Positions 16,573 through 41,233 of a DNA stretch of 64,000 nt are shown here, in pieces. Under the pieces are notes generated by a model. It was not told the origin of the DNA, made no database searches, and worked only from the letters and a program-made list of their open reading frames with translations. This DNA comes from Agelas oroides (taxonomy: Eukaryota > Porifera > Demospongiae > Agelasida > Agelasidae), in contig OX422192.1 of NCBI GenBank assembly GCA_949130485.1, positions 3,604,085 to 3,668,084 on the forward strand. The letters run 5' to 3'. Made by a program: the position numbers and the translations under genes. Within the stretch, counting starts at the first letter, position 1, and every line of letters starts with the position of its first letter.

Positions 16573-19500
16573 CTAAGAAGATTCATAGGTCGAACCACCA
16601 CCTCTGAGTCGCTGAATCTTAACCACAAAACAGCAACACATTCCTAAAACCAGGATGAGACTAACTGCTCCTATGACAGACTCAACAGCTACTACAATAA
16701 CTATTTTAGTTGTGCTGCGAATGACATCTATGTGTGTGGTGTACGGGGTTGGATCATGTACAGGTGATTCTGGGATATGGCAGAGTAGGGTAGCTGGATA
16801 GGACGGCACAGGGATGCTAGCAGACTCTGAGGTTGTGACCGTATACTTCTTCCTGCCTTCACAGTCTGACATGTTGACATAGTTAACTTGCATGGTGATG
16901 TTCTCGGCTATGGTGACGTTTCCTTGTTTCACCAACGTAATGTAGTGGTAGCCTGGATTTTCAACAACGTACGACACATTGGAACATTTCACTTGGCCAC
17001 TGTTACCCACCAGCACATTCTTTGAGTACACAGAATGATTGATCCCAGATTTGAGGAATTCCTGATTAAGGGCTTCACTGTCAAATATAAGGACATTTGC
17101 AGGTGTAGTTGTAGCACTTGAACTTTGTAGGCATATACTCATGACAATTTTAGAGTTTCTTAATAAGTAAGGCATTCTGTCCAAGTCAGGTGGAAGGTTG
17201 AGCATGCTTGTTGGCCAAGAAAGGTTCTTGTTCCACAATGTTACTGTATTTTTGTAAACCACAAGCTGAGTTTGGTCTACTACACACACCTGAACATCGT
17301 AATTATAGTCACCTTGCATCAGGATTTCTGACACTGTCCATTCAATGTACCATGGTCCATCTGTCTGATCACAAACAATGGTGTCACCTTCATAGCCAAG
17401 GTGCTGTACAGAAGCTGGATTTAAATGAGTGCCGAAGAGGATGGCGACTGCAGCAGACTGACAAAAGCATAGAAATGCAAAGACCACTACAATTACGCAA
17501 CATATAATCTTTCCGAGTGTTGCAGTAGTGAAGTGCTGACCTAAGGAAAGTAAAGCATACACAGTGACTACTACAGTCAGCTACCTTCAACTAAGTCACT
17601 CACTTGTGGTTGCCATGTCCGAGCTTGTTTTAGGTTTGTCCGCCTTGTGCTGCAATAACGCAGCTTCTTCTGAAACACAGGGCACTGTATCCTCATGTTC
17701 AAGGTCATCAGCAGCTACCAAGGACAGAAATAAACACGATGTTGAGTATCTAATGTATATTTATATCATTACCCAAACTATCTGATTAGGTAGTTGTTGT
17801 CTGCTTTGATGCATGTGTTGTCAGCTTCTGCTTACAGTTGATTTGATTGTTGTCCCCTGGGAATGGCTGCACTGGGTCCTCCATGTGGGTCTGTCCTGTT
17901 TCCACACCTAAAGCCATGAGTAGGGATCAACAGTGATGTAGTATTACACTAAAGAAAGATGCATGTAATAATCTAGCTATATGCAGCACCTCCTGCTGTT
18001 TGTACACCACGCCAAGAACCACCATGGTAACCAATGTCCTTCACTACGGGCGAGCTGCTCTGGGAAACAAGCCTTGCAGAAGTGCCTGTTCCAACAAGGT
18101 GTTGCTGCTGTTGTCCTGCAAAGTGGGAAGAGAGAAAATTCAGTCTTATTAGCAGCACATTTCTTCGATCAAAAACTCTTGTATAATTTGTTTCCCAGCA
18201 ACTATTAGCTACTAAATTGTCCACACTAATGGTGTACCTTGTTTACACTGGCAGGCAGGGGCTATAGCAAAGGAAGGCATACAACCTTACTCACATTCCA
18301 AGTTGTCACACCAGCTACAGCAGATAATATTACAATACCAACAGAGAGTTGATAAAGTCCCATAAAAGGTCATGAGAGGAAAAAGAAACTCATGAAACGG
18401 ACCACATAATGTCCCAAAATACACTTTGGGAAGACCCATTTCCATATGCGCATGTAACCTTTCCCAGTTCAAAGGAGTTGGTACAAATGCTGGACTGACA
18501 GATACCAAAATCAACAAGAATGCTAACCACGTTAAAGGATGGGTAATTACTTACCCTGGGTGCACATGAATCACAGTGGCTGCCAAATGTTCCATGGGTG
18601 CCATCATAGTCAGACAGGAATGACAGTGGCCAACTTAGCAAAATGGTCTTTTGGTTCGCACTGGATTCCATGATTGTTAACTGCTGCTAACCCACAAGTT
18701 GGAAGTTTAAAGGAACCAAAACACTTAATCATGTGATCATCGAAAAGGAAACTCCGGCCCCTGAAGACTAGTGTTCAATTGATACTAATGTCCCGCCTCA
18801 TAGTTGAAACTACCCTACCCATTTAGCTACAAATGCCCCATAGCTATAACTAATAAACCCATTTATCTATACAACTGCCCTAACCCATTCAGGCCATAAC
18901 TACCCTGTCCATATAGCTATAAATATCCCATCCAATTTAGCTACCCACAAAGTAGTCTGTGAATGTATGTAGAAAAAAATAGAAACAATGATGAGTCAGT
19001 TGGTGTTGGAGGTCCCCCATTTACACAACAACATTATAGACTCTTAGTGACTACATCCATCAGCAACACATTTGTGAGTTCACTCCTAATGTAGGCACAT
19101 GGTTAACAAAGTATACTTGTTCGAACTGATCTACATGCATGCATGGCACTTGTTATGTGACCACCCAATCTATATAGAACATACGAAGAAATTCTTGGAT
19201 GGAACCCTGCTGCACGAGTTGTGCTTATTAATTCTGTATCTCTTCAACATAAAAGTTCGCCCAGACTTAAAAATCAGCAATGAAAATGAAAATGAAAATG
19301 AATACGCATGGAACTGAATGATGTACGCATAAAGCTAACCAACAGTACAAACAACTACTGTGTCAAGATTCCCTATCAACCCATCCTTGGATCAATCACA
19401 CCACTCCAGTTGCTTCTTACGAGTTAATCGATCCACGAAAGAAACTTATAGTTGCACGAGACATACACGACTAGCTAGCCACATAGTAAAGTACCAATAC

Positions 19501-20738
19501 TACCATTGCCAATGGTATAGTATGAATGCAATTCTAAAACAAAATAACTCTGGGACTGAAACCATATAGAACAACAACTATAATGCCTACTACACCGACT
19601 CCTTATTTTGACAGTGGCTTATTTCGACATAGTCTCAAACCCAGACAACCCTTCAAAGAGGAAAGGAGGGTCTGGTGAATATAGTACATCCTGCTAGCTG
19701 CTGCTATGGATTCCGCTAAAAGCTAAGCCTTTGAAGTCGCTTGCTGGGCTTCAGTAAGTTGGAGGGTGGTCTGGGTACGAGACTAATTCTGACATCAATA
19801 TCATATAAAAGATAACGGAGACAGAGAAGTGTGAAGAGGTCACAGTTAGCAGCTACAGTGATACACATACCAAAAGGAGTGTGTTGTTCTGAAACACCTT
19901 GGCCGTTGCATCCACTCTCCTGCTGTGGCGCTCCACTCTCCCGCAGTGGCTCCTCTTCTTGCTGAGGAAGTGGCAGTAATGAACTTTCACACTGCACTTC
20001 ATGGGACAATCCACCTACACAGATCACATGTACATACCAAAACATAAACACATACCAACAACATTACAGTTACTTCCTGGTTACAATCAATATCACTTGC
20101 ATGCTATACAAATCACAATGCCACAAACCCATTTAGAAACAGGAGTATGCGTACTGTTTCACATGTGGCTAACCTTGCTCCTGTACTGCTGTTCCAAAAC
20201 CACTTAACTTCTTAGCAATATCTTTCCGACCAATATCTTGTAACCACTGTGCAAGATCATGCAGTGTACTCAGATCTTCTGCACTGATGGTCTGCTCATG
20301 TAGTAGACGGTGAAACAAGTGGACAGCTGACTTGACGTTACTAGGTGCCATCCCAATCTTTTCTTCAGGAATGATGTATACAAGCTTCCGCAGATATTCA
20401 CCATCACCAAGCTCATCAGCCACTGAGATGAGCAGCTCTTGAAAGAACATGTCTGGAAGCTGTTGGGAGTTGGCTGCAGCATGCTCATTCAGCAGTGACA
20501 CATGCTCAGACTTGAACCCAGCCTTTAACAGCATTCGTTGCAAGAGTTTAACAGCATTTTCAGAAAACTCACATTGCTTGAGACGCCGAAACAACTCAGG
20601 TACTCCCTTCAAATCTTCAATTTGTCCATAAGGAAGTACAGCAGTTGCAAGCAGTCTCAACTTCTCTTGATCACTTTCATGAGAGAACTTCTCAATAGTT
20701 GAAAGTGCAGACGGCAACGTGCAACTTGGCTGAGACAT
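16573..20738 (-). CDS. Tandem-DED, double-pass membrane protein (member 1)
   Basis: Six exons: 20738-20174, 20014-19871, 18115-17990, 17907-17836, 17714-17604, 17540-16573. Every junction is GT..AG in phase 1 and the CDS is 1986 nt (661 residues). Residues about 10-90 and 100-180 are two death-effector-like helical bundles (LRLLATAVLPYGQIEDLKG then ELFRRLKQ; later LADELGDGEYLRKL-like and HLFHRLLHEQ). Residues 190-340 are a low-complexity linker. TM1 is about 349-374 (CCVIVVVFAFLCFC), then an ectodomain of about 240 residues with many N-x-S/T sites, TM2 about 619-645, and a 12-residue tail. The DEDs are predicted cytosolic, the loop outside. DEDs normally recruit caspases or adaptors; a receptor-like role is inference. 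An acceptor (TTTTACAG) 3 nt before the ATG implies a 5'-UTR intron. No whole-protein homologue comes to mind. Confidence 0.75.
18116..19870 (-). other. Large intron of the first DED membrane gene
   Basis: 1.75 kb between the 144-bp and 126-bp linker exons. It holds A/T-rich low-complexity sequence with CCATTTAGCTA-like units (about 18790-18950) and a (GAAAAT)n microsatellite (about 19279-19305). An additional phase 1-1 exon cannot be excluded. Confidence 0.5.
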
Positions 20739-20996
20739 TTGCTGTAAAAGTATCAAAGAAACCAACATCTTAACGCTGGACCTTTCTAACAGTCAAGAAC
20801 CTCCCAAAAGTTGCTCACATGATTAACTTTCAAATCAATGGTGCTGATGATTTTGTTACTGGTTTCACACTTTGTGATTTGTTTAAAATAGTTTATATTG
20901 TTAATGAAAGTGCTTAATGTCTACTTAGCAACTTTTAGTGCTTTCATAAAAGAAATGACTCAGCCACACCGACAATGAATAGTTATGTTAGCAACC
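20739..20996. other. Upstream region of the first DED membrane gene
   Basis: 5' flank or 5'-UTR intron of the minus-strand gene. No TATA or other promoter motif could be called with confidence. Confidence 0.35.
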
Positions 20997-21265
20997 ATAT
21001 GTGGCAGTTCCGGGTGGAAATTGAACATTATTCCATTGCGCAATTCAACCTCATTACCACGTTCGAAGCGCTGTAGTGCAAAACTTCCATTAAGGGCGGG
21101 GCTCATACGCGCTACATAGACTTATCAGGTATTCATGCATCTTCACTGTGCGTATGAGCCCCGTCCTTAATGGAAGTATTGTGTTACAGCGCTTCAAACA
21201 TGGTACCGCGGTTGAATTGCGCAACTGAATAATGTTCGATTTCTACCTGGTACTGCTACATATAC
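20997..21265. mobile_element. Palindromic MITE
   Basis: The whole stretch folds on itself: ATTGAACATTATTCCATTGC (about 21020) is the near-complement of the sequence at about 21215-21240, and AAGGGCGGGGCTCATACG of CGTATGAGCCCCGTCCTT. Arms are about 115 bp around a short centre; no coding capacity. Confidence 0.7.
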
Positions 21266-21529
21266 ATATGCACTTGTTCCACATTCATCCCAATTGTAAT
21301 GCCACCCGAACAAAACTTACAATTAGTTCAAGGTTGGTGACATTATGCTGAGTAGAGCACAAACTAAACATCACTTTGTACTTCCCATTGTGTTGGAACA
21401 AAATTACCCAGTACCTCCACTTATTGTTAAAATTAGTGTGTATTATATTAGGAAGTGTACAGCACACAGCTCAGTTTCAGATGATTATGAAAATAGGATA
21501 CAGTTTTGCTTTTTTAATGTGGGTTCACA
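21266..21529. other. Intergenic, nothing recognised
   Basis: A/T-rich spacer between two palindromic elements; short open frames here lack any family signature. Confidence 0.4.
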
Positions 21530-22283
21530 AGGGTGTCTCTAATCGCTGGACTGGAATATGGAATGGAACGATGGAATGGAAAATGGAATGGAACAGTGAA
21601 CATACACAGTTATAGCTAACTCGTGTAACTGGCACTGCTCAGTCTAGGTTGAACTACATAGTGTATCTATAGGGCTGTTATCTCACCGCAGAAGCTTTAT
21701 GAGCAAGTACGGCATTGCCCACCGTCATGCTTCTATATCCAAGTATGGTACCGTTGCTGGCTCATCATCAGATGCTTTGTTATTGCAGTCTTGCACAGCC
21801 AGACTCTCGAACGAAAGACAAGGGTCTGGCTTTGCAAGACTATAGCAGTATATTTATAGTCTTCTTGGACAAACTTGAATGTGATGGCAGAAATTAGCGT
21901 TCGATCCTCAGTCTCTTCGCTTCGGTCTTCGTCTGTGCAACTTGATCCTCGGTCACTCCTAGGTCTCACAACCTTAGTAGCAATATTCCTTGACAGTAGT
22001 AAGTGTGGCTCCTATGCATGGTACTGTAGCTAGTCTTCGAGGACCCCGAGTTCTGACTGTGACATCATGATACCAGACAAGGAAGAATGCTGGCAACATG
22101 CATTGAACTTGCTCATATAGCCTCTGTGGTGAGATAAGAGCCCTAGACACATAGTAGCTAGCTCAACCTTGAAGAACAGCGCCAGTTACATGAGTTAGCT
22201 GTAACTACATACATTCACCGTTCCATTCCATTTTCCATTCCACCGTTCCATTCCATATTCCATTCCAGCGATTAGAGACACCC
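21530..22283. mobile_element. MULE-like non-autonomous palindromic element, copy 2
   Basis: Ends GGGTGTCTCTAATCGCTGGA / complement, with tandem TGGAATGGAA-type units replacing the TGGACTGGAT units of copy 1, and inverted arms of about 150 bp. GGGTTCACAA(G) is duplicated outside both ends. A second hairpin is nested inside (21786-21842). Confidence 0.75.
21786..21842. repeat. Nested short hairpin with AGCCAGAC arms
   Basis: TCTTGCACAGCCAGACTC pairs with GGGTCTGGCTTTGCAAGA. Related AGCCAGACT/AGTCTGGCT arms occur at 26431-26740 and about 39778-39845. Confidence 0.55.
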
Positions 22284-22691
22284 GGGTTCACAAGTTGCTT
22301 CACAACGTAGGTTTACATAACACATATACTTAGCTGACTGTGAGGCTTCACAATGACATCACTAGGACAGCAAGGCATACAATCTTTCTAAACACAGAGC
22401 TATAACATAACGTTAGTCAGTAAATGGTTTTTTTTTCCTCCTTGGTTACTGGTGGACGTATAAGTGATCATTGTGCTGCATACACTAGAACACAGCCCGT
22501 GCTTTGTCAGTGCTTAATACAAAGCATACAGCATGTTCTGAAGATTACAGCATGTTGTCAGAATGTACACAGCCTTCATCTTCCACAAATGAGCTTGCAG
22601 TAGTGACCCTGACTCACTGCTGTCTGGACACTATATATGTAGCATGTGTTATTAAAGTCATTCAGTGGCTTCTCAGTTGGCTCCTGCATAC

Positions 22692-22868
22692 ATGAAGAGG
22701 AAGGTTATCCTTTACCAACTTGAGCTCGGAAAATAACTTGCCAATGTTTCGACTGAATGCTCCAGTCATTACACTTTCACCCTGATGATGACGACTGAAG
22801 CATTCAGTCAAAACGTTGGCAAGCTATTTTCTGAGCTCAAGTTGGTAAAGGATAACCTTCCTCTTCAT
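22692..22868. mobile_element. Palindromic MITE (AACTTGAGCTC type)
   Basis: Arms of about 75 bp: ATGAAGAGGAAGGTTATCCT at the left is complementary to the right end, followed by TTACCAACTTGAGCTC and its complement. A decayed relative lies near 40240-40300. Confidence 0.75.
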
Positions 22869-24185
22869 TTATTAAATTCATGCTGTTCACAGTGGGTGTC
22901 AATGTCTGTACTGATATGACTATGCTTCTTCCCATGCAGGCCTTGATTACTTGTAGTAGTGCTCCTCGATTTGGTGCTGCAAGTCACTTAATGTAGAAGG
23001 AAGGCAGTGGCACAGCCAAACTGGGCATGATGTACAAAAAAAGCTAGGGAGATCTCAGCGTGTGCATTTGTTATTATTACTGGGGCGAGCGTGAGCGGCC
23101 CCACACTAGTGAGTTGAATTGAGATTTTTCGTAAAATATTATTTCGTTCCTATGTTGTTCCGTATGTTTTTGACGCTGTAATTTAACGTGGGAGCCGTGG
23201 GCCGCATGCGGACATAAGCAAGATTTTCGTACGACTCTGGCAGCAACGAAAGCTAGGTGAAAGATAACACGAAGCAGCTAGAAAGAACAGCCGGAGCGTG
23301 CACACCTCTTGTACAAGTTGTGTTGGAACCGACGTTCATGATCTCACAGAGCTTTGAATTGCCAGCAACACTAGACCTAAAACACAGCTTGCCTTACTCT
23401 GCACTTTTAATACAGTACTTGTTTATTACAGTAATAAACTCTTGCTGCTTCCTACACTGTAGTAAATCAGCTAGTATCTAGGAGGACAAACGCAACTACT
23501 GCTGCCAAGCATCACAGTGCGACTCAATTTTCTCAAGTAAGAGTAGGTTCTGGTCTGGTGCATAAGAAACTACGGGCAGCATGTCAAAAAGTATTCAAAC
23601 AAGGTAGGGATGACATAAATGTGAAGAGAGACATACAAAGCCCCATTCCTACATCTTTTTAACCCTGCAGATGCACTCTAGTGTGTGACAGATGTAAGGG
23701 TGGGCTTTCTATATTGTTAGCAGACAGGGCCAACAACATAATGTTAATAGTTGCTTCTGACCAATCACACCCTCCAATTAGCTATAGGCCTATAGCCACA
23801 CATACCTGACTGTTCTGACAGGATCTTACGGAGAAGTAAGAGTAGGTTCTGGTCTGGTGAGCAGCCCTGCGGCGAAAGTCATGTGACAGAGAAAGAATAT
23901 TGATGTTGAATCATGCTGAATCATGCTGAATCATGCTGACATTGCACTGTTATGCTTTTTAACTTACCACTTTACGTAGAGATCGTTAGTTAGTTCTGTT
24001 GACTGACCAAAACACTGTCTTCTGCAACTGAACAGGCACTCGACCTACGGATATTGTGTACAATCCCCCTCCTCGTTCGCCATACTACTAAAGGTTCAGC
24101 GAGTAAGATGATGCAATCGGTACGTAACCTAGCGTGCTAGACTCGACTAAACTGGTATACGCACGTGGAAGAGTCTGTATGATGT
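22869..24185. other. Intergenic, no gene recognised
   Basis: Contains a direct repeat of AGAGTAGGTTCTGGTCTGGTG (listed as a 20-bp core AGAGTAGGTTCTGGTCTGGT at about 23542 and 23840) and three head-to-tail TGAATCATGC units near 23910-23935. Upstream DED exons for the plus-strand gene at 25.8 kb were sought here and not found. Confidence 0.4.
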
Positions 24186-24261
24186 TAGCCTCGTTCCCAG
24201 GCCTATCCCGTTTTTTGTTCTTCGGTTTGCGTTTAACAGGGTAGGCCTGGGAACGAGGCTA
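24186..24261. mobile_element. Short palindromic element, GCCTCGTTCCCAGGC family
   Basis: TTAGCCTCGTTCCCAGGCC at the left and GGCCTGGGAACGAGGCTA at the right, 76 bp. See the family finding. Confidence 0.75.
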
Positions 24262-24915
24262 TACTGGCTTAGTATACTTATGCTTAATGCACGTATTTTA
24301 GCCATACCTGTGTGAAATCTCTCAACATAGAGTCTACTCGTGTCATCTGATCATGACAATAATCCACTGGGCAACAGCTTGCTTGTTAGATTTTCTGGCC
24401 ACTATTGGTCTGATATTAGTTATACCAGTGTTCTTTTAGGGTCGTTACATGTCAAATCAACAAAAAGAATTGGTGACCTCACAGATTTGGGCGAAACTTT
24501 CACAAAGTGTATATTGAGTGAGTTTCAGCACTATAGCTATTTCAGCCAGACAAAAACTCTTTTCGGGTAACCATTGGTAGCTATACAGGTCTGTGTACGC
24601 TCACCATAGCTTTCCATACTGCCAGGTAATGTAGCGTTAGTGCTGTCTAGTCCCATTCTGTCGGCCATAAAGCTATAGCAAATGTATTCTGTCCATACAG
24701 TGTGGGCGAGTTCATTCGTTCGCCCACATGTAGATTAAGTTCTCTCTACCCATGACGTTTCTCACGTGATAAATTTTACCAGGCTCTCCCCTTTCCTTTC
24801 GATTTTTCGTTCGCGCGCGGGGAGAGCCTGGAATTGTGTACTAAATCCAAAACCTAAAAACTAATTCAAACAAAAAAGCATAAACCCTTTACTAAAACAA
24901 CACTAATTCGTATAC
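24262..24915. other. Intergenic, small hairpin only
   Basis: A hairpin CAGGCTCTCCCC ... GGGGAGAGCCTG spans about 24779-24831. No gene seen. Confidence 0.4.
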
Positions 24916-25161
24916 CAGAGGAGGTCAGACACGGTTGATCTTTACTAATTAAAAAGGCCAGGTCATCACTAATTGATGTTGGATATTGCAATTTAGAAAG
25001 TTTTCTAGCTTTTTGTATGACTGGACCAAGCTATGAATCTTGATTTAAAACTGGGGCCCCTATCGGTAAAAGTCCTGAGAGCTAGTCTGTTGAGATACGA
25101 AAAATCAATTAGTGATGACCCGGCCTTTTTAGTAGAGTTCAACCGTGTCCGACCTCCTCTG
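24916..25161. mobile_element. Palindromic MITE
   Basis: CAGAGGAGGTCAGACACGGT at the left matches the complement of the right end, and the pairing continues through AGGTCATCACTAATTGAT / ATCAATTAGTGATGACC. The open frame starting at 25033 is made largely of this hairpin and is not a gene. Confidence 0.75.
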
Positions 25162-25835: not shown

Positions 25836-28296
25836 AGTCTGAAGATTCACGGCTCTATTCAGAAGTACCACCTGTGCCTGCTACAGATGCTACTGGAGCT
25901 GGCCACCCAGACGTTGTTGTGGCACCTCCACTACCAGATACAGCTGAACATGCAGGTAAACTAACAACTTTCAAACCAACTGTGATCATGTCACTGTTGT
26001 AAGTTAATTAAGTTAACCCTTTAATCCCTATAGTGCACTTTTGGTTACATCACACTGCGCACTGCGCAGAAAAGATAGTCTCTGCGTGCTCACTGCGCGC
26101 TTGCACGCGGGTTTCTGCGTCAGCAGAGAGGGTGGAACATGGGGAGGTGGGTGGGGTCATCCACAGGGTGACATGCACATGGTGGCCGTTGTGGCTGGCT
26201 GTCAAAGGGCCATGGTTGGGACAGGGTGGGCCAATTCTCGCCCTGGCTGCATGGACAGGCTTAGAAAACACTACTTTTACCTTGTACAGGGCTGATTTCT
26301 GGCAAGGAAGGCTGCTTGGGCTCTGAGCGGGTGTATGACAACCGAGGGTGCTGACCGTTGCATGCTCGTTAATGAGTGGGCATGGTTAAGGTCACGAGTC
26401 TGCTTCTTATGGCTGGAAGTGGACTTGGGTTAGTCTCGTGTACCCAGACTCTCACAGGGAGGGAGAGTCTGGTCAACTGCCCGTATAAGACTTGTTCCAA
26501 CACCCAACCCAACTGAGGTAGGCAATAAGTAGACCATAGAGCTTCGCGATAATTGCAGCTTGTCTAGTGTGAGTGAGGCTTCGTTTACTTGACACATCGC
26601 TATTATAGTGGTATAGTATAAATGTTGTGGCCATGAAGGCACTTATCACGCACCACAGTTGGGGTGGGTGTTGGAATAAGTCTTATATTGGCAGTTGACC
26701 AGACTCTCTCTCCCTGCGAGAGTCTGGCTATGTGAGACTAGACTTGCATGGGTTCAGTTTTGGAGTGAGAGCTTGGACAGAAATGGAGATATGGTGAGTT
26801 AAAGGCATGCAGTCAGAGCTTGGACAGAAATGGAGATATGGTGAGTTAAAGGCATGCAGTCAGAGCTTGGACAGAAATGGAGATATGGTGAGTTAAAGGC
26901 ATGCATATGCCAAAAGTAGTCCCAAGTGAAAATAATGAAGGGCTAACTGGAAACTGATTGGCCCAATTCTGACTAGTGAATAATTCATATCATAATGGCA
27001 CTATTGAAATTCATTGGCCTCTTGTTATGTTTTTTTCATGGCTGCAACCAGAATCAACAAGGGTGTGTGTCCCTTTCATGTGGCATGCGACCCTTTGTAG
27101 TGGCCTGGCAGCATGTTCATGTGGCCGTGCGGAACTTTGAAGAACTCTTCCAACACTTAAGAAAAATAAATAAAGTTTTTCCAGCTTGTTGAATGTGATG
27201 CTTGGCCATTCGGGTTTGTGTATAAAGCTTCCCTGAGTGGGCTTGAATGTTTGTAAGTGTGCTGGAAAGGCTGAGAGCCATCCTGAAAGACAGGTGTTGT
27301 CTGGCAAAGGTACTGTAGACAGGTGACTTTTCGGCCTTGTCAGCTCTGCCCGTTTATGTGCCAGTGGGAATGTGTTTAACTTGGTTCCAGTCTAGAGGCA
27401 ATAACAGGAAGAAGGTCTGTGGACATAGCTCCCTGGCCTAGAGGTGAGCAGAAAAATTCGTGCATAGTTTCATAGGGGATGAGTTATAGGTTCTGAAATC
27501 GGTCTCAGTTTTAGTTGGTTTTATTTGGGGGGGGGGGGTCAACATTTTTCTTGAAAGCCAACATAGCCAAATGCAGTTTTTGAGGTCAAATGTGGGTTTT
27601 GGCCTTTAGATTGGAATTGAAGTGGTTCCATGATAAAGTTTTCACTTGTTTTGTGTGAGTGTTGATGATAAGGTCAGACAAGGGGGGGAGGGTAGGACAA
27701 GCTTACGTGCACAAAATACAAATTTGAAAGCGATCAAAATAGAAATTGAACCCAGATTGATCCCAAGCAAAAATCAATGTGGAAGCAGATAAATGCACTT
27801 AATTGACTCAGGAATGCAATTAGTAGCCTACTAGTCATGTGGTATCTGAGCTTGTCCTACACCCCCTGTGGTCAGGCTGTGGGTGGAGCCTTGGAGAAGG
27901 TGCAATTTTTAGCTGAGGGACTAAAAATGGAGTTTTTAGACATTTTTCAGGCAGGGGGAGCAGTTTGGTGCAAACTTTTTGTGTACACTTTAACTTTGTC
28001 CATTTAGGCATCCACATGATTTGGAGATTTCCTACCTTAAGCAACATGAAGCCTGCACCTCACCAGTTAAGCTTTAGCGCATTGACCCCCTTTTCCAGGG
28101 CATTGCACACCCAATTCAGCCTGTACCCAATCTCAGCACTGAAAACCAATCTATATGCGCACAGCCTTGAAGTATAATTTATCCCTGCTATTGAGCCTTT
28201 TCATGTGATGTGATCATTTGAGAATACAAGTACAAGACTAAGTGAATATTTAAGCAAATACCCCTTACCCACTTTTGCCTCAAAGTAATGACAAAA

Positions 28297-28329
<33 letters not shown>

Positions 28330-30206
28330 CGGAGGGCATATTTTGGAAGCTTACAGTATAAAATTATGATAAATGGCTGCCACGTTGTTGTACAAGGAAG
28401 TGGTAGCTTTTATGGAATGTGTTGAAGATGGTGCCTCAAGTTTATATTAATACAAGCAATTGATAAAGTGAAAACACTCTATGCATAGTTAAGTGACTAA
28501 TACCATCTTTGTGTGTATATATATTACATAGGGCAAGTGCATCCACCTACTCAAGCAACAGACAACAGACTAGATGAGAAAACCCTGCTGCTTGCAAGTT
28601 TCCCATCAGGAGGCTTTTCATTTTCATTTCGTAATAAATTTAAAGGTAAGCTGGCATCAATATGAATGTGCAGTATGACTGAATATGTATAGCTTGATCA
28701 TGAAGCCACTTAAGTACACTGACATACAGTGGAGCTGCCTTACATGAACATGTGATTAGTGAGGACGCATGGCATAGTCTAAGGAGCTGTACAGCTACCC
28801 TGCAAATGCCACAGTTGCTTCCCTATTACTGCCATGAACTACAAGATGAGAGTGAGCAGAAGACGGTATGCAAAGTTAATGCAAGAGTTGCTGTCACTTA
28901 GTTCCTCATTGAGACTGGTATCTCTCCTGTCTTGATATGCGTGCATCTACTGTCGACTCTCAGTGCTGTGAACTATAGGGGTGTGGCAAACTCATTTGTT
29001 AGGCATATCTCCCGACTGGCATTATGACCAGAAATTTTGAAGAGAGATTCCCTGTAAATTACTTTGCAAATCATTTGTGACATTTGTGTCAAAAGGAACT
29101 ATACTGTCAGTGTGTGGCAAACCTAACTGAGATCTCTGGCAGCATGTAGCAGTATATAGCCAGTCATCCCAATCTTGGTGCTACCATTTGGGACTATTCC
29201 ATCTGTTGTTCACTTGCTGACTGTTCAAATTGATGCTTGGTTATGCAATCACTGTGCATGTGCCTTTCCTTTCACAGGCATCTGTACAGAGATCATATGC
29301 ACATTGAAGACTGCTAAAATACTCTTAGGAATACTGATTTTTGCCACATTTCTTGGTCTTTTTTTGGTTTTCGCATTCTGCAAAGATTCTCACTTGAGGC
29401 AGTCTGCACACCCTGGGGATACTATTCTCCTTGTGAAGGAGCTGGATCCATTCTGGTACCAGGGGATTGTTGTGAGTGTATGTGGCAGTACACAAACAGA
29501 ATGGGAAGTGAGCTTGTTCAAAGAAAAGTGTACTGATTTGAAAACTTACTACACTGAAAGTCATGTTGAATCTCACAACCTCACCAGCAATGGTGAGCCA
29601 GTTCACATTCTTGAACACAGGAGTAATCGGAACAACTATTTTATATCGGGCAATATTTCGGTAACAGTACTGATCTTCAGTAAAACTGGTGTTGAAATAG
29701 ACTTATGCATTTTTGACAACCTCCAATGGTACCAAGACTTCTACGAAAATCCTACCCAAGAAGCAAAACAAAGATCCTGGAAGCCATGCTTGCATGCTTA
29801 CACAGATGTTCAGCCCACAATGTTGACCGTCAGTTACCTCATTGACAGTCCAAGCTACTACTTCATTGCAGCTGCACCGACAAAGCCGGTGTCCTTTAGC
29901 TTGCGATATACACTGGACTTACAACAGGAGGTGTATAACCACTCAGATTATGAACCTCTAAACTGCACAGTTACTAGCACTAGTTTTTGCAGTGTTCCAT
30001 TAACCGGTAAATACACTCTGGAAAGCGGAGACAAATGGTGTTTCTTGGCATTTGATCCTGTGCTACCAAGTGAAGATGTAGATTACATCCCACTCCAGGT
30101 TCACCTTGAGTCTAGAGCGCTCAACACATTTTCAATATGTGTGCTTGGAATCCTTCTTATATTCGTCATTGCTTGTACTGGCATTTGTTTGTACATAAAA
30201 AAATGA
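25836..30206 (+). CDS. Double-pass membrane protein of the DED family (member 3), 5' part not found
   Basis: Exons seen: 25836-25955 (linker), 28532-28645 (linker), 29278-30206 (final exon, 309 codons with stop). All junctions are GT..AG in phase 1: acceptors AAATGTAG, ATTACATAG and TTTCACAG; donors CAG|GTAAAC and AAG|GTAAGC. The final exon has TM1 (ILLGILIFATFLGLFLVF), an ectodomain of about 250 residues containing the family block PGDTILLVKELDPFWY (compare GDTIVCDQTDGPWY in member 1), several N-x-S/T sites, TM2 (ICVLGILLIFVIACTGICLYI) and a two-Lys tail. No DED exon is visible upstream, so this copy is either N-terminally truncated, starts from another module, or has split exons I missed. 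Transcribed opposite to members 1 and 2. Confidence 0.65.
25956..26430 (+). other. Intron sequence of member 3, no gene
   Basis: Short overlapping frames in a GC-rich stretch (26033-26330) have no signature; the stretch looks like repeat sequence. Confidence 0.35.
26431..26740. mobile_element. Palindromic MITE with AGTCTGG arms
   Basis: AGTCTCGTGTACCCAGACTC near the left end against GAGTCTGGCTATGTGAGACT at the right, with inner GTTCCAACACCC / GGGTGTTGGAA complements. Lies in the member 3 intron. Confidence 0.7.
26769..26906. repeat. Three-copy 47-bp tandem repeat
   Basis: Units beginning GAGCTTGGACAGAAATGGAG at 26769, 26816 and 26863, identical by eye apart from the truncated third copy. 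Confidence 0.9.
26977..28045 (+). repeat. Dispersed 1-kb repeat, copy 1
   Basis: Colinear with 54821-56253 at roughly 80-85% identity by eye, from AATGGC...ATTGAAAT-CATTGGC through TGAGTGGGCTTGAATGTTTG and CTCCCTGGCCT to a final CCTACCTTAA. No coding frame is conserved between the two copies, so it is probably an old non-coding transposon. It lies in the member 3 intron. Confidence 0.75.
28297..28329 (+). repeat. Uninterrupted G33 tract
   Basis: 33 consecutive G residues followed by CGGAGGG, within the intron of the plus-strand gene. It could form G-quadruplexes in DNA or in the nascent RNA, or may be a length artefact. Confidence 0.95.
28646..29277 (+). other. Last intron of member 3
   Basis: No repeat or gene recognised. 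It ends in a pyrimidine tract and TTTCACAG at 29277. Confidence 0.5.
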
Positions 30207-30224
30207 AACGGATTTCACATTATA

Positions 30225-30230
30225 AATAAA
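30225..30230 (+). terminator. Poly(A) signal of member 3
   Basis: AATAAA 19 nt after the stop codon. A second AATAAA is at 30332-30337. Confidence 0.65.
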
Positions 30231-31981: not shown

Positions 31982-32026
31982 TAGGTAATCAAAAATATGG
32001 GGAAAAGCCTGGGAACAAGGCTATTA

Positions 32027-32339: not shown

Positions 32340-35300
32340 CTAGTGTCTACGATGAATTCCCTCCATATTTGTGGAACGTTTCCACTTAATACATAAAACA
32401 ATGCCAAGAATGCTAGCGGCAGTGACAACAATTAGAAAAAGACCAGCTGCAGGAAATATCAAAACGTACAAACTCTTGTTGACTTGCACACTGAAGTGAG
32501 CAGTGGAGTCCTCTTCTGATGTCTTCCCAGGAACAAAAGCTACAATGGTGTAGCTCTCAAACATGTTCAAAGTTGAATTGTTCAGTTCTAACAGATTTAT
32601 ATCACAAGATTTTGATGCTCCATTGAGTGTACAAGCCTTGGCATAGTTACTGTGGTTAAAGAGCTCCAGATAAGCAGTGAGATTACCTTCTGTCGCAAGC
32701 CAATCAACACCATCACTGTTGTCAAATGTAACCTCGGTTGTTACAAAGTAGTATGCATCATGAGGAGAGACAAAGTCAACACTTGAACATTCATAATCTG
32801 ATGTTCCAATAGGAAAGTTATAGTGGTGTATCGAAGACCCAGAGCCATCATTTTGGAAGTTACTAAATTCAGTGTAGTTATCAAAGATAAATGCTACTGC
32901 TGTTACATTGCTTTCACCAATATTCTGGAGGCAAAAGGTGTAGTTGAAATAAGCACCTTCAAATAAATATACAAAAGGGGCTGACCCTAATGTCCGCGTG
33001 CTGGACCAAACTGGAATACTATACTTCCAGAGTTTACTGCCACTATAGTACAAGTGTTGCTTCAACAAAGTAGATGGTACAGCATAAATATCAACATTGG
33101 GGGTTGGGGAATTCTCTCCTGAAAGTCGGATGGTAGCTGAAGAATACCATATTGTTGTAACTGTACCAAGTGAAATTGTCACATCATCACCATTATTATC
33201 CGTGTGCACCAAGTATTCTTTTGTGTACGGCTGATGTACAGTAGACAGTGGTACCATAGAGCCTATGGCAAGGAGGATGGCTACAGCAACCAAACCACCT
33301 ATCGTAATGGTGCAACACTTTGCTTTCTTGGAAAGTCTTCTCTTGGAAGTCCCTGTGTGGTACAGCAAAGCATAGTTCTGCATACAGTAATATAATGCAC
33401 AGTGGAAAGTCACAATATCTGAACTTCAGACATATCTGCATGAATATTCACTATCCGAACCCCAATATTTTGCTGCGCATTAAATGGCCAAAAATAATCT
33501 GCTTTGTAGTATTTACTTATCGTAACATTTAAGACAGCTACCATGGGGAAAGTGCATGGTCATTTTGCATTTCTTTGTGTACAGTTTATTATTTTTGTGC
33601 CTTCTGGCATTAAATTATGCTCACGTGTGTGCCCCGCACTACTGGCTTGGCTACGTTGGCAAGTGTAAAGCAAGCGTGTGCAAATCCACGTGCTAGTGTT
33701 TCTTCACAAGGACGAAACAACCACGCACCTTCCCCACGACATCCAGCAATCCATGCGCTAAGCTACGTTCAAAGCCGGAAGCCATGCAGCAGTTACTGGC
33801 TGTTAGAATGGCCGGCACCGAGACCAGTACAGTAGATGGAGACACGGAACAACATTTTGGGGCCAGCGGACTGACCTTGTACCATGCATTGCATGTATTC
33901 CTCCTACACATGCACAAAAGGCTTTCAACATTGATCTTTGACTTTTCAAAAAAAAATGTCAAGGCAGTACTGAGACGTCTATTTTCCATGTAGGAAAAAA
34001 AAAACAGTTGAGAATCTGTTAAGAAACTAATTTAATTGGAATGGCCTAAGGGGAATATACTGTACCCTCATATTATGATAATGCACTGACTAGAGAATCT
34101 TTGCACCTAATGTGCTCTGGCATCTTACTCTTGGGTGTTTATACAAGGGTACACAACAGTCAAATGTGCCCAAATATGCCATTTGCCCTATGGTTATTTA
34201 TCAACCACTTGAATTGCAACAAGCATATTAAGTGCTTTGTGGCTTGTTACAGGGGCAGATCAAAGTGGTACTCCATGCCACATTTGCAATACTAAGCTAG
34301 GCTATGTCAGAGGCACCGTATCTTGACGTCACAAGGGCTGATACAAGGTCTCTGTCATATGACACATATTAACCACCCTAGACCATTCACTATAAGTCTA
34401 TTTTGAGCTATGGATCGATTCCTTCTTTGGTCCACGTTTCCACTTCTGCTTGGAACTAGCACTGGAAACTTGAGCCAAAGCTTCTTTAAGACATTCTCTG
34501 CGGGGTCATGACCTTGACCACACCCACTCATCCAGTGAGCTTTCAATGTTCAGGGCATTCTGACCAACAAACACTCCTCCTGACTGAAAACTGTCTACAG
34601 ATCTGGAAATGGTGCCCCTACAAGGGGGTAGGAGTGGTTTCTACACCTATTTGTGCTAACAAAGTGAGAAATGGTCTAGCCAGTGTTGACTAAGGCTGTT
34701 CTACAGCCAGCCAAGGCAGCTGCCATGTGCATGGCACCCCAGGCTGAAACCCGCCTACCTCTCCTTTGTGCTAGTGCAAAACCTATCTTCAAACACATTG
34801 TAACAACTAACAACATGTGGTCAACACCAAAAGTTATCATCAGTGGTTAAAGGGATAACTTATTAATGTATCAATATGATCCAGTTGGCAGTTGGGCTTT
34901 GACAGCATGTGTACTGTAACACCTTTAAATTTGTGTCATCACAAAACAAGCTGATATAAATAACACTACAAAATACATTGTGAAAAAGATGTGCCTGGTG
35001 ATGAAAAACGGAAGCTTGAGTAAAATCAATGGACTTTTGCCACAGACATTTTTCTAGTGTAGTACAGTGTAGAGGTACAATAGTAGCAAGGCTCCTCCCA
35101 ATCAAGCTTTGTTACACTGTGTGAGCTGGGGAGGAGCCTGAGAAGGAGGTTACTTCCTGCAACTAACCAGGTTGAATCAAATTGGTCGTTTCTGATGAGT
35201 TAGATGTGCTTTCAGATGGTACTTCACGTCCTAAACAGTGACAAATGTAAATATGACAACACTCACAACACATCTACATGTAAAGGCTTGGATTTATGCA

Positions 35301-38300
35301 CTACTCTAATGCCATGCTACCAAACCCACGTAAAAATATTAATTATACCAGGTATATAAGTGGGTCTCTGTGCAGTGTCCATGTGAACTACATTGATGTC
35401 TACCTATAGGTAGACTGAGGGGTCAGCAACTGAAAGAACACATTTTGCACACACATTCTACTAATAGCGAAAAAGCAAAACAAAAAAAACTTTATGCATG
35501 TGTAAACCGTGTTATACCAGCCTTTTTTTTCCTTCTCCTCGCACAAAAGACTGACAGCGACAATGTTTACATACACAGAGACTGAAGGCAGCAGAGACCT
35601 GGAGATAAAGCTACTTACTTAGCACCAGAAGGTAAATGATAATGTACCTTGAGAAGGGTGCGGTAAAACACCTCGGGCTGTGACTATTGGAGCATGTTGA
35701 CCTGGAGATGCCACAACTTGCTGTGAAAAATGATCATTACCTACATATGTGGGTGAATAAAGAAATACCTTTGACATACGCCCATCCCCCTCTTTTAGGA
35801 GCCACTTAAGTTCATCGCCCATTGGTGTACTTTGAAAGATTACGGGATTTATATGCAGCTGAAGGCAGCAGAGGCCGGGAAATGGGGCTACTTGCCTAGC
35901 ACTAGATGGTAAATGATAAAGTACCTTCAGAAGGGTGTGGTAAAACACCTTGGGCTGTGATTATTGGAGCATGTTGACCTGGAGATGCCACAATTTGCTG
36001 TGAAAAATGATCATCACCTGCATATGTGGGTGAATAAAGTAATACCCTTGATACACACAAAATAATGTTAGGCCAAGCAGAGTTTATCACAAGTAGGTGT
36101 GTACTACTTTTAGTGATATTAGTGTTACCACAAATATGCAATACATGACATGCTGTGTGTAGCAAGGTGGCACATGACATACAATACTTAGGTTAACATG
36201 GCTCTACCATGCTCTCCTCATATATGTATTATGACTGTAGCAACTCTACTTATAAGGCAGCGCATTATATGTGCCTATACTCAATTCACCACAAATGGAA
36301 AGGTGTACTCAGTACACCATGAATGGAAATAAGATGTACTCATTGCTATTATGTAGCCATTGTCGTCTTAATCATGAACGTCTGGCATAAAGGAACATTT
36401 GGCTAAACCCTCCTGGAAAACCGTATCAAACGAATGACCTAAGTACGAGTTGCAGATTGCAATCTAAGCACATCGATGACAGCAATTAAACTTTGCTGAT
36501 ATTCCTTGTGGGTAAGAATGTGCAGTGTATCATGAGTGCCACTGGAAACTAGTAAGTATCACCTTGTGAAACAGCTTAGTCGGTCTTTTGTGACAGTTAA
36601 GTAGGAAGATAGCACAGTCTAGCGTGCTGAGAAAAAGCAATGAGTCAGCAACCCCGCCTTTGTTGAGGAGTCTCTTTGTCTAACATGGCCAGATCTAGGG
36701 TTGGGTGTGGCCATGCAAGACTAGGGCTACCTCAAACTGTGGTAGACACAAGAAGTGTATCGAGAAGTGTATCACTTATCAATGTTAAGTGTATCACTCA
36801 GCTGCTACGTAGCGCACAAGTCTCCTGTCGTCACACATATTTTTGTCATACAGTAAGTTAACTGTCTTGGTAAATGGCCCTCCTAGCTTGTCGTCACCTT
36901 TGCCACAAAGAGTACGCACAAAGCAGTGGTGTACGTAATATAACAACAAACACGTATACTTCGACCGTAAACCCATTACGGACAGACATACATACACACA
37001 TAAATGCAAGCACAAGCTCATGCTAAGACTCCACCAGTACCTGCCGCACTCGCATAATTATGTGCCTCGTGCTAAGGTGTTCGCAATGAACGTTGATGGC
37101 ACTTGTGCATTGCCATTAACCTTAACTGTATATGGCTATGTATCGCATAACTCTTACCATGCACACATATATATTTACAACTGCTAGCCGAGATCTTGGT
37201 GAACACTCACACTAGGGTGCTTGGCAACCACATAAACCTTCCATTTCAGTGCTAGTGTAGTGTACATGAGTTTGAGTGTAAGGCCCACACTAGTAAGTTG
37301 CATTGTCAAATTACATATCGATCTGTTGTATGTCATTGCACACATCAGATGGAGGGCAGGAAGAGTCTCCTGGAATCTTTGTGGTTTGAGTGTTCAGGTC
37401 CCTTACTGTGTATTTAGCAATCACTGATTTCCTTGAAGCTGCTTGGAATACATAAAGACCATGCATGCACAACAGGCAGGCTGTGTACACAGACAGCAGG
37501 AGCTACATACTATGATGCTAGACTTAGCCTGTTTGGACCACTCAGCCTAGCCTTGTCCCCATACTTAATATAGTACATGTAATTGGCCAGGGATGATAAA
37601 GGGCTGCATGGCAAGCTATTCTGCATTAATTCATGATCTGGTAATAAATGTACAGGGGATTACCACTACTCACTCAGGTTCATGCTATAATGTTCCAAAT
37701 TCATGGTCTTTATGTATTCCAAGCAGCTTCAGATCATTTTGTATAGAGTCGATCAATGGAAGCTTGGAAGGGAAATAAATGGAAGCTGATCCTAGCAAGC
37801 CTGAACCCTGAGTGAAAATCAGTGAGCCTGGACAGCTATAGTCTTGTTCCAGTATTGTACAAGCATGCGAGACGAGACTAAGACAGCTAGCTGCTTAGTT
37901 GGCTCAGGAATGCAATTAATGACCTACAAGTCATGTGATACACAAGGCTTGTTCTGACTATAGCATGGTTAAAGTGTAGTGTCTATGTTTGAACTTCAGT
38001 CTGAAGAAGCAGCAAGCCTGACCTCCAAGTGCAATCAACAAGAAAGCAACAAAAGATGATTTTGGTGTGCTTAATTGGTTCCGGAATGCAATTAATGGCT
38101 TAAAAGTCACCAGATACAGAAAGATTGTTCTACCTCATCTGATAATGTCCTACAATCCCCTAGTACCATACATGTCTGCCAATTTCAATAAGTTCTGTAA
38201 ACTCACACAACCCACAGTGTTTACATAGTTTGACTTCACCATCCAGGGCTACTCTGAATACTCTGGTATGTAAGTTGTCTGCACTTTGTAGTCTTGTACC

Positions 38301-41233
38301 CACCCTCCTTGAAGCAATGTTACTGCTTGTGCATCTGAATTTGAGACACTATTCTCTTTCCACTTGGATTACTGGAAACAAAGAAGAAAGCCTGGTTGCT
38401 TGGTCATCTTTAAGTAATATTTGTACAACCCCCCACACAACAATATAAAAAAAAACCCAGAAAATAACACGCCCCCACCCAGAAAATCAACTTTATTTGG
38501 CATTGGGATTTTCTGTGTGACTACATTACTATATAATACAGATTATACATTAGCATGTAGGGTGTACCACTCGTGGGTGCTCATTTGCATGACTACAGTA
38601 TGTACTAGCTCTACTGCTCTCTCTTCCCTAGTGTTAGGAACAAAGCTACTCATAGAAGAGGGACTTGAGTGTAGAGGAAGTAGTTAGGTGCCATATTTGC
38701 TCGATCAGATGCCGTGGCTACTATTTATTTCATCACGCAATTTTGTGTGACTTCTATTCGAGAGCGGCTACTACTTGAGAGCAGCGCTTATTAAGCTCAG
38801 TGTTATCAGAAACTTTTTTTGGAAATGTAAGGGCTTTGAGGAAAGCGAGTTTTATAAGATTAACAAAGAATTACGATGCAGTGACTTGGTTTTGAAGCAA
38901 ACCTTCCAGCTTCTTGATCAGCCGCCGCTTTGCTACAAAGCCTGCATGTTTTGATATTGCCATTCGAGTCACGAAAGTTTGTACACGTGCGCACAAGCTA
39001 TCGAACATTAGCCACGGCTAGTAATCGAGAGCAGCAACTATTTCGTTCAGCACATCCAGAGGTGCATCAACAGTTCGAGAGCGGCGACTTATCAAGAGCG
39101 GCATCTGATCAAGCGAATACGGTAGTTACATCAGTCAGCTAATAACAAGTGAACAAGATAGTTATGCCAATCACAAGTACAGTACGTTGCTGAATCTACT
39201 TTTGTTTAGGCACTGACAAGACTCACGGATGTTGATCTCGTTATGTTCAGAATGGTATGAAACACTGGACACTCGACCACGTCTACTCGAAGGCCTTCCG
39301 TTGGAATCCGTGCTCCTTGGTCTCAATGGTTGAGAGGTTCTACATTCTGCATTGGTCACTGCGTCAGTAGCTACAAAAAGTGGAGACATCCTCATATCAG
39401 TACAGGTGGGAGCAACTGTTGGAGTGGACCAAGTACTTGACCAGAGGTTGGGAGCTAGCAAGAAGTTAGTTAGTAGCTATGAAATCATGCAGTATACCAG
39501 TATACCAGTGGCCACATCATGACAGTAGTGAACTATAACAGCCCTTATTTGTTGCAACAATGTTGCACATGATGAGTTTTAGCTATGGTGCTTTTGAAAA
39601 TAATTTTCTGAAGGAATTTCCAAGAACACTTCAAAAGTTTGTAAGTAACAAACAAATATCTAGAATCAGAGTATATACCCTAAATATAGCTATAATTCAT
39701 CTGGCTTTATCCAATCACGTTTCATTGTGGGTACTGGAAAAAGACATGCAGAGTTGGCAAGTAAGATAGTTTCAAATAGCCAGACTAGCCTTCAGCCCAA
39801 GTTTCTCATCTTTCAGATTCTCCAATGGGAGTCTGGGGCTATGTGACACAACTAATATACTCTAGCCTGTGCACACAGAGTCTGCAAGAAGACATGCGCT
39901 GAGGGCTTTCCGTTAATAAGCCCTTGTCTAATCTCCAGAAAAGATTCATACCTTCAGTGGAATGTATACATACCTACTGGCTTACTGCATTGCCACACCA
40001 CTGTTGCCGAGCTTTCAGATTTTTGCCTTAGAACAACGTTTTTGTTTGAGCATTCATCACACCTATTATATAAGGCTAGTTTGCAGTTCTTGGCTCCTGC
40101 ACAACTCAGAAACAGATAGCAGTAGCATGGCCACCTTGGTTGATAAACGTTACACATGTCATTAGCATTTCACCCCTAAAACAGTTTCAGCACAAGTCCA
40201 TGAGTCCGCAGATTACATCAGGCCGATGACTATTGCAACATTCAGTCAAAACATCAGCAAAAGTATTTCAGTATGAAGTTGGTAAAAGTTCCATATATGC
40301 AGGATCTAGTAACTAAGAAACCACTATGGTAGTCTGTCACAGTTCACATGCTACTATAGGGCACTCAAAAATTCATCACTGTAAAATGGTTTAGTTTTGA
40401 ACATGCCACAAGAAATGCCAAGTGGGAAGTAAAGCTAGTAACCATGGCAAAGAGGGTGGGGATGGAGCTAGCATATATGTAAACACAGCATGCTTGTGAT
40501 ATTGTGGTCTCAGCAGTTATCTGAAGTTATCTGAAGTATTGCCATGTAGCTAATACTAATGTTGAAGCTGTACATACATACTATAGTAAACATATGCGAA
40601 AACACATTCATAGTGAGACTTACAGTACTCTATGTCTCCAAGGCGATGCTTCTCATGGTAGTCCCTCAGGTGACACAAGGCATCCGGTGGAGCTCTTACA
40701 TGCTTCAGACCATCAATGAATGGCTGTGTATTGTAAACTCCAAGTACACTGCCCTGAATCAATTTTGAAAACAGCTGTAGATATGTAACATGATCCCCAT
40801 GCGTTTTGAGATGCTCCCATGCAAGGTAGTGAAGAATTTCTTTCTGCTTTATAGGATCCAGCTCAATCAATGTTCTTACAATGCATTCTACTAAGAGTGA
40901 TGTTGGAGAGAGCTTGGAGCTGAGGTCTGGAATACTCTCACACTGAGGGAGTTCATAATCACTTAAGGAGCGGATGCAGTTCCAACCATCCTCCTTCAGA
41001 AAAGACAGACGCCTCAAGAGAAGTTGGAAAGACTCATCAGGTGTAAATTTGTACTTCGTTATCAGATTGTTGTACAAGTCAGCCGTGTCACCAAGCTGTT
41101 CGAGGTGTCCATAAGGAACCTCAGATAAATAAGTAAGAAGCAGCAAAGACCACTTTGAACTTGGCAATTGCTGTTGTGCAGCATTCAACCATTTGCGTAG
41201 CTTGCTCACAGCAATTTGTGGATAGTCAGACAT
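32340..41233 (-). CDS. Tandem-DED, double-pass membrane protein (member 2)
   Basis: Six exons: 41233-40624, 39454-39227, 36017-35925, 35740-35648, 35230-35168, 33352-32340. All junctions are GT..AG in phase 1; the CDS is 2100 nt (699 residues). Two DED-like bundles fill residues about 20-90 (SLLLLTYLSEVPYGHLEQLG, FQLLLRRLSFLKEDGW) and 105-190 (LLVECIVRTLIELDP, YLQLFSKLI). They share VPYGxLE/LPYGxIE with member 1. A Ser/Thr/Pro/Arg-rich linker includes one 31-residue exon present twice. TM1 is about 374-398, the ectodomain about 250 residues with many N-x-S/T sites, TM2 about 655-682, and the tail basic. An acceptor (GTCCTACAG) 4 nt before the ATG suggests a 5'-UTR intron, as in member 1. Exon 39454-39227 contains a possible 33-nt retained segment whose removal would keep frame. 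Likely a membrane-anchored death-fold signalling protein; function is inferred. Confidence 0.75.
33353..35167 (-). other. Last intron of member 2
   Basis: 1.8 kb. A short open stretch at about 34400-34505 (minus) reads like protein in one frame but joins to nothing. A decayed palindrome of the AAGGCTCCTCCCA type lies near 35080-35155. Confidence 0.4.
35648..36017 (-). repeat. Tandem duplication of a 93-bp linker exon
   Basis: Exons 36017-35925 and 35740-35648 are both 93 bp, phase 1-1, and encode near-identical 31-residue peptides containing DHFSQQ(I/V)VASPGQHAPI. Flanking intron sequence is duplicated too, with a unit of about 277 bp. Confidence 0.85.
36018..37423 (-). other. Intron of member 2
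   Basis: No exon or element recognised with confidence. Confidence 0.4.
37424..37736. mobile_element. Palindromic element in a member 2 intron
   Basis: GAAGCTGCTTGGAATACATA... at the left (37424-37463) is complementary to 37702-37736 (TATGTATTCCAAGCAGCTTC). No coding capacity. Confidence 0.65.
37737..38689 (-). other. Intron of member 2 with small repeats
   Basis: GGAATGCAATTAATG followed by a short AAGTCA block occurs at about 37910 and 38090, and again at 27810 (GGAATGCAATTAGTAG); it looks like a dispersed short repeat. Confidence 0.4.
38690..39124. mobile_element. MITE with GATCAGATGCCG termini
   Basis: The left end TATTTGCTCGATCAGATGCC and right end GGCATCTGATCAAGCGAATA are inverted copies. 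GAGAGCGGC(T/G)AC motifs repeat inside. Lies in a member 2 intron. Confidence 0.65.
39455..40623 (-). other. First coding intron of member 2
   Basis: Contains an AGCCAGACT...AGTCTGGGGCT half-palindrome (about 39778-39845) and a decayed relative of the 22.7-kb palindrome (about 40240-40300). No gene. Confidence 0.4.

Follow-up and report, generated by a model that had tools for sequence, protein, structure and literature searches.

The window analysed here is a stretch of 64 000 nucleotides of Agelas oroides DNA (C10:3604085-3668084). It contains two paralogous genes, A and B, together with a third gene, C, and the first codons of a further paralogue, A' (table 1). The exon models of A and B were built from genomic DNA alone. 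The frames of 661 and 699 residues reported in the earlier note were rebuilt: all 10 introns are GT-AG and in phase 1, and there are no internal stops. Gene C lies between A and B on the opposite strand and was missing from that note.

Table 1. Features of genes A, B and C and of the adjoining paralogue A'. Positions are those of the window, except where the contig is given.
Feature	Position	Strand	Remarks
Gene A, all exons	20738-20174, 20014-19871, 18115-17990, 17907-17836, 17714-17604, 17540-16573	-	661 aa
Gene A exon 1, tandem DED	20174..20738	-	DED1 about residues 12-86, DED2 99-181
Gene A linker exons 2-5	17604..20014	-	in-phase GT-AG exons
Gene A last exon, TM1 - all-beta ectodomain - TM2 - short tail	16573..17540	-	homology to the last exons of B and C
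Gene B, all exons	41233-40624, 39454-39227, 36017-35925, 35740-35648, 35230-35168, 33352-32340	-	699 aa
Gene B exon 1, putative divergent tandem DED	40624..41233	-	profile of A, A', e1 and e2
Gene B linker exons 2-5, duplicated exon pair included	35168..39454	-	
Gene B last exon, TM1 - ectodomain - TM2 - tail	32340..33352	-	
Gene C linker exons	25836-25955, 28532-28645	+	similar to translated DNA 5' of paralogue D
Gene C last exon, TM - ectodomain - TM	29278..30206	+	tblastn with B, E 2.9e-6
A' DED exon	C10:3603564-3604124	-	59% identical to A; ectodomain exon also on -
First codons of A' (DED exon leaves the window)	1..40	-	5' end, missing from the earlier note

Exon 1 encodes about 190-200 residues in each gene and carries the shared motif described previously, LPYGQIE in A and VPYGHLE in B. 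The last exon encodes the two membrane spans that had been proposed, visible as hydrophobic stretches at residues 348-366 and 628-646 of A and 378-396 and 666-684 of B, with about 260 residues between them; the last exons of the two genes share this plan and are homologous (tblastn E about 1e-8). The loop between the spans had been called glycosylation-rich. The sequons do exceed expectation, but the excess is modest (6 versus 3.2 in A, P 0.08; 8 versus 4.3 in B, P 0.04). Similarly, the linker is enriched in Ser, Thr and Pro as claimed, but moderately, with 26% in A and 34% in B versus 15% and 18%, respectively, for the DED unit. An AATAAA is found 14 nt 3' of the stop of the gene A ectodomain exon.

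Exon 4 of gene A has a weak counterpart (E 0.006) between the DED and ectodomain exons of A', and none was detected there for the other linker exons of A. For the linker exons of gene B, no clear counterpart was found in B'. Two of them (36017-35925 and 35740-35648) are duplicates, identical at 26 of 31 residues; they lie within a 198-nt direct repeat, 89% identical, the copies of which are 277 bases apart. In gene C, the second linker exon matches the region upstream of paralogue D (E 3e-11), with an acidic dileucine in both. An N-terminal exon of gene C was sought upstream and was not found. In the block at 21560-22280, stretches at both ends look inverted (TGGAATGGAA-type) by eye, which suggests a small transposable element.

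A search of the window's own genome (259 Mb) reveals four further copies of the plan, all on contig C10: A', B', e1 and e2. Both exons of B' are on the - strand, in the same order as in B; the DED exon is 70% identical to that of B, and the ectodomain exon 45%. The DED exon of e1 is located at C10:3274 kb, upstream of ectodomain exon e1. The e1 and e2 genes could be fully assembled (616 and 606 aa). Each consists of five matching phase-1 exons, among them a micro-exon of 21 or 24 nt. Between these two genes, the DNA is alignable in the exons, the short first intron, some bases beside the micro-exon and one non-coding block of 82 columns. In the stretches examined, a TM-ectodomain-TM exon is present on the same strand, 3' of the DED exon, at six of six loci, at 2.0-7.9 kb from the ATG. 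In plain distance, the opposite-strand ectodomain exon e3 is slightly closer to the DED exon of e1. The six loci are not independent cases, because they form three paralogous pairs.

Each of the six DED exons has an acceptor-like CAG 3-6 nt 5' of its ATG, as would be expected at the end of a 5' untranslated intron. The donor GTAAGT is kept in both B and B', and protein similarity between them ends at this donor. The plan of a double DED, a linker, a TM, an ectodomain and a second TM, as read earlier in A and B, is found in both genes and recurs at four other loci with exon order and strand kept. We conclude from these models that A and B are predicted members of a clustered family of double-pass membrane proteins. 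A regular tandem repeat of about 1.2 kb (C10:3600543-3602026) lies between the DED and ectodomain exons of A'; by eye, it keeps three frames of the + strand open.

The selection acting on these exons was estimated by the Nei-Gojobori method. Ka/Ks is 0.24 for the DED exons of A/A' and 0.39 for those of B/B'; for the ectodomain exons, it is 0.41 (A/A'), 0.43 (B/B'), 0.33 (C/D) and 0.59 (e1/e2). All six exon pairs are below 1 (range 0.24-0.59), the pattern of purifying selection on coding sequence. The Ks values are unequal across the ends of the gene pairs. In A/A', Ks is 1.20 for the DED exon versus 0.38 for the ectodomain exon, and in B/B' it is 0.47 versus 1.09; the gap is two- to three-fold, and its directions in the two pairs are opposite. 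This inequality suggests exon-wise gene conversion or exchange in A/A' and B/B'.

Two death-effector-like bundles had been claimed for each gene. The HMM check of the N-terminal unit supports the second bundle of A, but gives no direct match for B. With the Pfam DED profile (PF01335; curated cut-off 35.9 bits), exon 1 of A scores 39.7 bits and that of A' 36.9 bits, both over the cut-off, and those of e1 (33.2), e2 (25.4) and B' (23.3 bits; E 7.8e-5) remain under it. The whole 661-aa protein A reaches 34.4 bits, just below the cut-off (E 2.7e-8; second DED only); this value does not alter our estimates, since DED2 and the paralogues carry the argument. B has no match to Pfam DED, either as exon 1 (E<=10) or as the whole protein (E<=0.1), and a direct BLAST comparison of exon 1 of A with exon 1 of B gives no significant match.

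The relatives provide the connection. A profile of A, A', e1 and e2 matches B' (20.6 bits) and B (12.6 bits) over nearly their full length; the best shuffle scored 8.0 bits (1000 shuffles, 812 scored). This four-member profile was the only one that set B apart from shuffles: with an earlier genome-only DED profile, which had two wrong-frame rows inside, the scores were 35.5 for A, 27.5 for A', 11.9 for B', 8.9 for e1 and 4.6 for B versus 11.0 bits for the best shuffle. Profile-profile comparisons were made by hhalign with a 27-row profile of the genome's own DEDs. The six pooled sequences match it at DED2 (P 5.9e-9) and at DED1 (P 3.4e-5), and the A/A' alignment at DED2 (P 1.3e-10) and DED1 (P 0.002); with A, A', e1 and e2 pooled, P is 0.01 for DED1. 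For B/B', the probabilities are only 9.8% and 3.8%, and A/A' versus B/B' gives 1.2%. An RxDL-type motif near the last helix is a feature of DEDs. Among the four proteins tested, A, e1 and e2 have R.D[LIVM] where DED2 ends, and B lacks it. The single-sequence AlphaFold2 model of exon 1 of A, with ten helices and a pLDDT of 48, was too poor to use; Foldseek with this model listed no DED among the best 50 of 149 matches.

Taken at sequence level, the identification of DED2 in A and its relatives appears secure, DED1 is likely to be a degenerate DED, and B is read as carrying DEDs that are recognised via its relatives. As for the earlier claim of two bundles per gene, DED2 is a clear Pfam match in the exon 1 translation of A, but DED1 is weak. 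Other domains of death signalling were also sought. No caspase domain is matched in the whole A or B proteins at E<=0.1; there are no Pfam matches to TNFR repeats or TRADD-N in either protein, and no Death domain over the cut-off (exon 1 of A, 14.2 bits versus a cut-off of 22.6). The ectodomains of A, B, e1 and e2 have 4-7 Cys each.

Twelve ectodomain exons were compared on contig C10 (A, B, C, D, E, A', B', e1, e2, e3, e4 and e5). By hydropathy, two TMs flank the ectodomain in all 12, and the tails after TM2 have 4-33 residues, leaving no room for a RING. Some of these exons match the domain APD1-4_M (PF16041; cut-off 25 bits). In a genome scan (E<=0.1), three places score over the cut-off, C13 (53.5), C22 (30.9) and D (26.6 bits), and gene C comes fourth with 20.5 bits, under it. 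Searched as single proteins, e4 scores 26.1 bits (over the cut-off, and unlisted in the genome scan), and D (24.5), C (18.7) and e1 (18.0) score under; the relatives C13 and C22, at 50.6 and 27.3 bits, are both over. The remaining eight exons (A, B, E, e5, A', B', e2 and e3) have no match to APD1-4_M, and none of the 12 matches APD1-4_N (PF16040; cut-off 27 bits). C22 has an APD1-4_N match of 36.5 bits, over the cut-off, and C13 one of 26.1 bits, just under.

C13 and C22 are thus identified, by their domain matches, as putative animal relatives of the plant APD scaffold. Each is encoded in a single frame as TM-ectodomain-TM, with APD1-4 domains and a tail of the YxxPhi type, and C13 also has a PPAY; neither is near any DED place found in the genome. 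Through the matches of D, e4, C and e1, over or under the cut-off, the C10 ectodomain exons probably belong to the APD1-4 scaffold as a divergent branch, to which A and B themselves are assigned indirectly.

The fold of the ectodomain was modelled from an alignment of 13 sequences, comprising C13, C22 and all the C10 exons except e5 (11 of 12). In the AlphaFold2 model of the A ectodomain exon (pLDDT 78, pTM 0.69), a helix (5-38) is followed by an all-beta middle and a second helix (278-312). Foldseek with this model gave E values down to 4e-6 and query TM-scores of at most 0.30 among the best 50 of 1668 matches. The matches, with low TM-scores, are scattered over viral jelly-rolls, C1q/TNF-like folds and CBM22 folds. 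The predicted structure is read only as a beta-sandwich, and we claim no homology to the Foldseek matches.

YxxPhi and dileucine motifs are typical endocytic or lysosomal sorting signals. Seven of the 12 C10 ectodomain exons have YxxPhi in their tails. Dileucine motifs, EEAALL in A and ETTNLI in B, are found in the linkers of these two genes, and similar motifs occur in C, in D and in a candidate exon of B'; the e1 and e2 linkers have no dileucine, and dileucine patterns are also found inside the DED unit. With these signals in tails and linkers, it is plausible that proteins of the A/B type cycle through endosomes, and the motifs are suggestive only.

Two possible links to other exons of the contig were rejected. 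A caspase exon at C10:3581828-3582562 (-), with a Peptidase_C14 match of 65.2 bits and DCCR in place of the usual QACRG, is located 5' of ectodomain exon e4, at a distance of about 1.5 kb. A caspase-TM gene at e4 was dropped; a candidate extracellular-looking exon, with no Pfam match over the cut-off, lies between the caspase and e4. A helical exon upstream of ectodomain E was considered as an N-terminal exon, and it has no relevant Pfam match and no in-phase join by eye; it also has no BLAST match to a death-like exon of the window. A duplicated helical exon (window 60440-60769 and 61267-61668, -) is death-like by eye, and its scanned copy has no relevant Pfam match.

The window carries some other features. 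At 4002-8073 (+), a reverse transcriptase frame (PF00078, 60.7 bits) is followed by a phage-integrase-like recombinase frame (below the cut-off), an arrangement that resembles an element of the DIRS/Ngaro type. Two very similar segments of a multi-span membrane protein (47253-50874 and 57678-60077, -) have, by eye, the look of a recent tandem duplication, with one polymorphic-membrane-protein repeat match in the upstream part of the first.

Elsewhere in the genome, at C15:958000-962000, two tandem-DED exons, scoring 126 and 123 bits, adjoin frames that contain caspase domains (134 and 180 bits). These caspase frames are on opposite strands, the 180- and 134-bit frames having QACRG and QACRV. 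Together with the adjoining tandem-DED exons, to which they were left unjoined, they are read as caspase-8-like genes. As tandem-DED exons adjoin caspase domains in this genome, natural partners for A and B would exist.

On this basis, we propose that the family may work as adaptor-less death receptors. In the predicted topology, the tandem DED at the N-terminus and the short tail at the C-terminus would be cytosolic, and the beta-rich, probably APD1-4-like ectodomain would face the outside or a vesicle lumen. Binding of a ligand, or crowding of ectodomains, would gather several tandem DEDs under the membrane; the gathered DEDs would seed DED-DED assembly, and this assembly would directly recruit the soluble tandem-DED caspases of the genome. 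A single protein would thus do the job of Fas plus FADD. We infer the sensing of ligand by the ectodomain and the signalling by the DEDs; the reading as a whole seems to us moderately probable, and more so than any of its rivals.

The main rival is that A, B and their relatives are membrane-bound inhibitors similar to FLIP, the caspase-less tandem DEDs of which would cap or soak up the tandem-DED caspases and restrain death. Short forms of c-FLIP and the viral FLIPs are the comparison for such capping inhibitors. The make-up is alike, a tandem DED without caspase; tandem-DED exons adjoining caspase domains are present in the genome in this case also; and the far drifted DED1 and the DED2 of B without its R.D motif might suit capping. 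An inhibitor, however, hardly needs a diversified and conserved ectodomain or a multigene cluster, and we regard this function as rather unlikely.

It is also conceivable that each locus holds two genes, a short soluble tandem-DED gene and then an independent TM-ectodomain-TM gene. The donor of the A and A' DED exons is a weak GTTAG, within which TAG is an in-frame stop; the DED frame stops right at the putative donor, so a soluble product of the DED exon alone is possible. No DED exon could be assigned to six of the 12 ectodomain exons (C, D, E, e3, e4 and e5): the listed frames and a tblastn search with the five known N-terminal exons gave none in the case of C, e3 and e5, and the same tblastn search detected none in the DNA upstream of D. 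In addition, C22 resembles a plain TM-ectodomain-TM gene, with an in-frame Met before TM1 and no DED match. Against separate genes, the same-strand pairing of DED and ectodomain exons holds at all six loci, and the DED exon of e2, sought upstream of its ectodomain exon, was found at the expected place (71% identical to that of e1). The in-frame linker exons are conserved between e1 and e2, consensus-like donors are kept in B/B' and e1/e2, and no Met precedes TM1 in the ectodomain exon of A. Two genes per locus are thus improbable. Finally, it is very improbable that these are APD-like membrane proteins of trafficking or ubiquitin pathways with N-terminal helical bundles serving as mere scaffolds without a role in death signalling: APD1-4 matches in some members and two distant relatives, the endocytic-type YxxPhi in the tails and the RING of the plant version would fit, but A, A', e1, e2 and B' match Pfam DED, some above and some below its cut-off, and the tails are too short for a RING.

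The adaptor-less receptor can be compared with several known systems. Caspase-8, caspase-10, c-FLIP and the viral FLIPs are soluble proteins with an N-terminal tandem DED. They share this position of the tandem DED with A and B, as do the C15 tandem-DED/caspase genes, but caspase-8/-10 and the FLIPs carry a caspase or caspase-like domain or none, and no ectodomain. Vertebrate death receptors bring in tandem-DED caspases via FADD. Like the proposed proteins, receptors of the Fas/TNFR type link an ectodomain across the membrane with the recruitment of DED caspases by a death fold; unlike A and B, they are single-pass, have a C-terminal death domain and need FADD as the DED carrier. BAP31/BAP29 and BAR/BFAR are likewise membrane proteins tied to caspase-8 and DED-like segments, but they belong to the ER and have a single, disputed DED-like segment and another topology. 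The plant APD1-4 proteins are membrane RING ligases with a C-terminal RING and a TM-flanked ectodomain. The A/B family has the same TM-ectodomain-TM order, with a second half like APD1-4_M in some members; it differs by the missing RING and by the N-terminal DEDs, added by phase-1 exons, and A and B themselves, unlike the ligases, have no APD1-4 match. Entries for APD1-4 appear in a wheat table (PMC8169666).

Membrane-anchored DED proteins have been reported from Crassostrea virginica, for which one paper describes about 50 proteins of the order extracellular-TM-DED-TRADD-N (eLife 2021, PMC8195603). As presented there, in a paper on apoptosis and immunity that also covers the role of FADD in death-receptor signalling, the oyster proteins are, like A and B, lineage-expanded and membrane-anchored with an intracellular DED (PMC8195603). 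Each has a single TM and a Cys-rich N-terminal ectodomain; behind the DED come TRADD-N and a variable C-terminus. By comparison, A and B have N-terminal and tandem DEDs, two TMs, another ectodomain and no TRADD-N match. For the sponge D. avara, transmembrane domains are reported in NLR architectures and 7 DED proteins are listed (PMC12909245). The earlier note knew of no described family with this plan. A double-pass family with a tandem DED was not found among the titles, abstract starts and passages covered by a full-text literature search with few subscription papers; membrane DED proteins in general are known (PMC8195603). Since the ectodomain probably comes from a known domain family, the novelty lies in the combination.

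We tentatively suggest, with rather less confidence than for the mechanism itself, that the family represents an undescribed class of death receptors: double-pass proteins of the APD type with their own tandem DED, which would seed caspase-recruiting DED filaments without a FADD-like adaptor. The class would have arisen in this lineage by a phase-1 DED exon joining an old eukaryotic TM-APD-TM scaffold, and would then have diversified as its genes were duplicated in tandem; signs of exon-wise exchange are also seen.

If this is true, an ectodomain fused to a tandem DED would be the simplest possible wiring of a death-receptor pathway, found in what is probably an early-branching animal, with a receptor that starts death signalling without a separate adaptor. 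An APD membrane scaffold of the plant type would also become linked with cell-death signalling in animals. With at least six loci and diversified ectodomains, the cluster suggests a set of receptors not yet explored, which might perhaps, as a speculation, be directed at microbes or serve in allorecognition.
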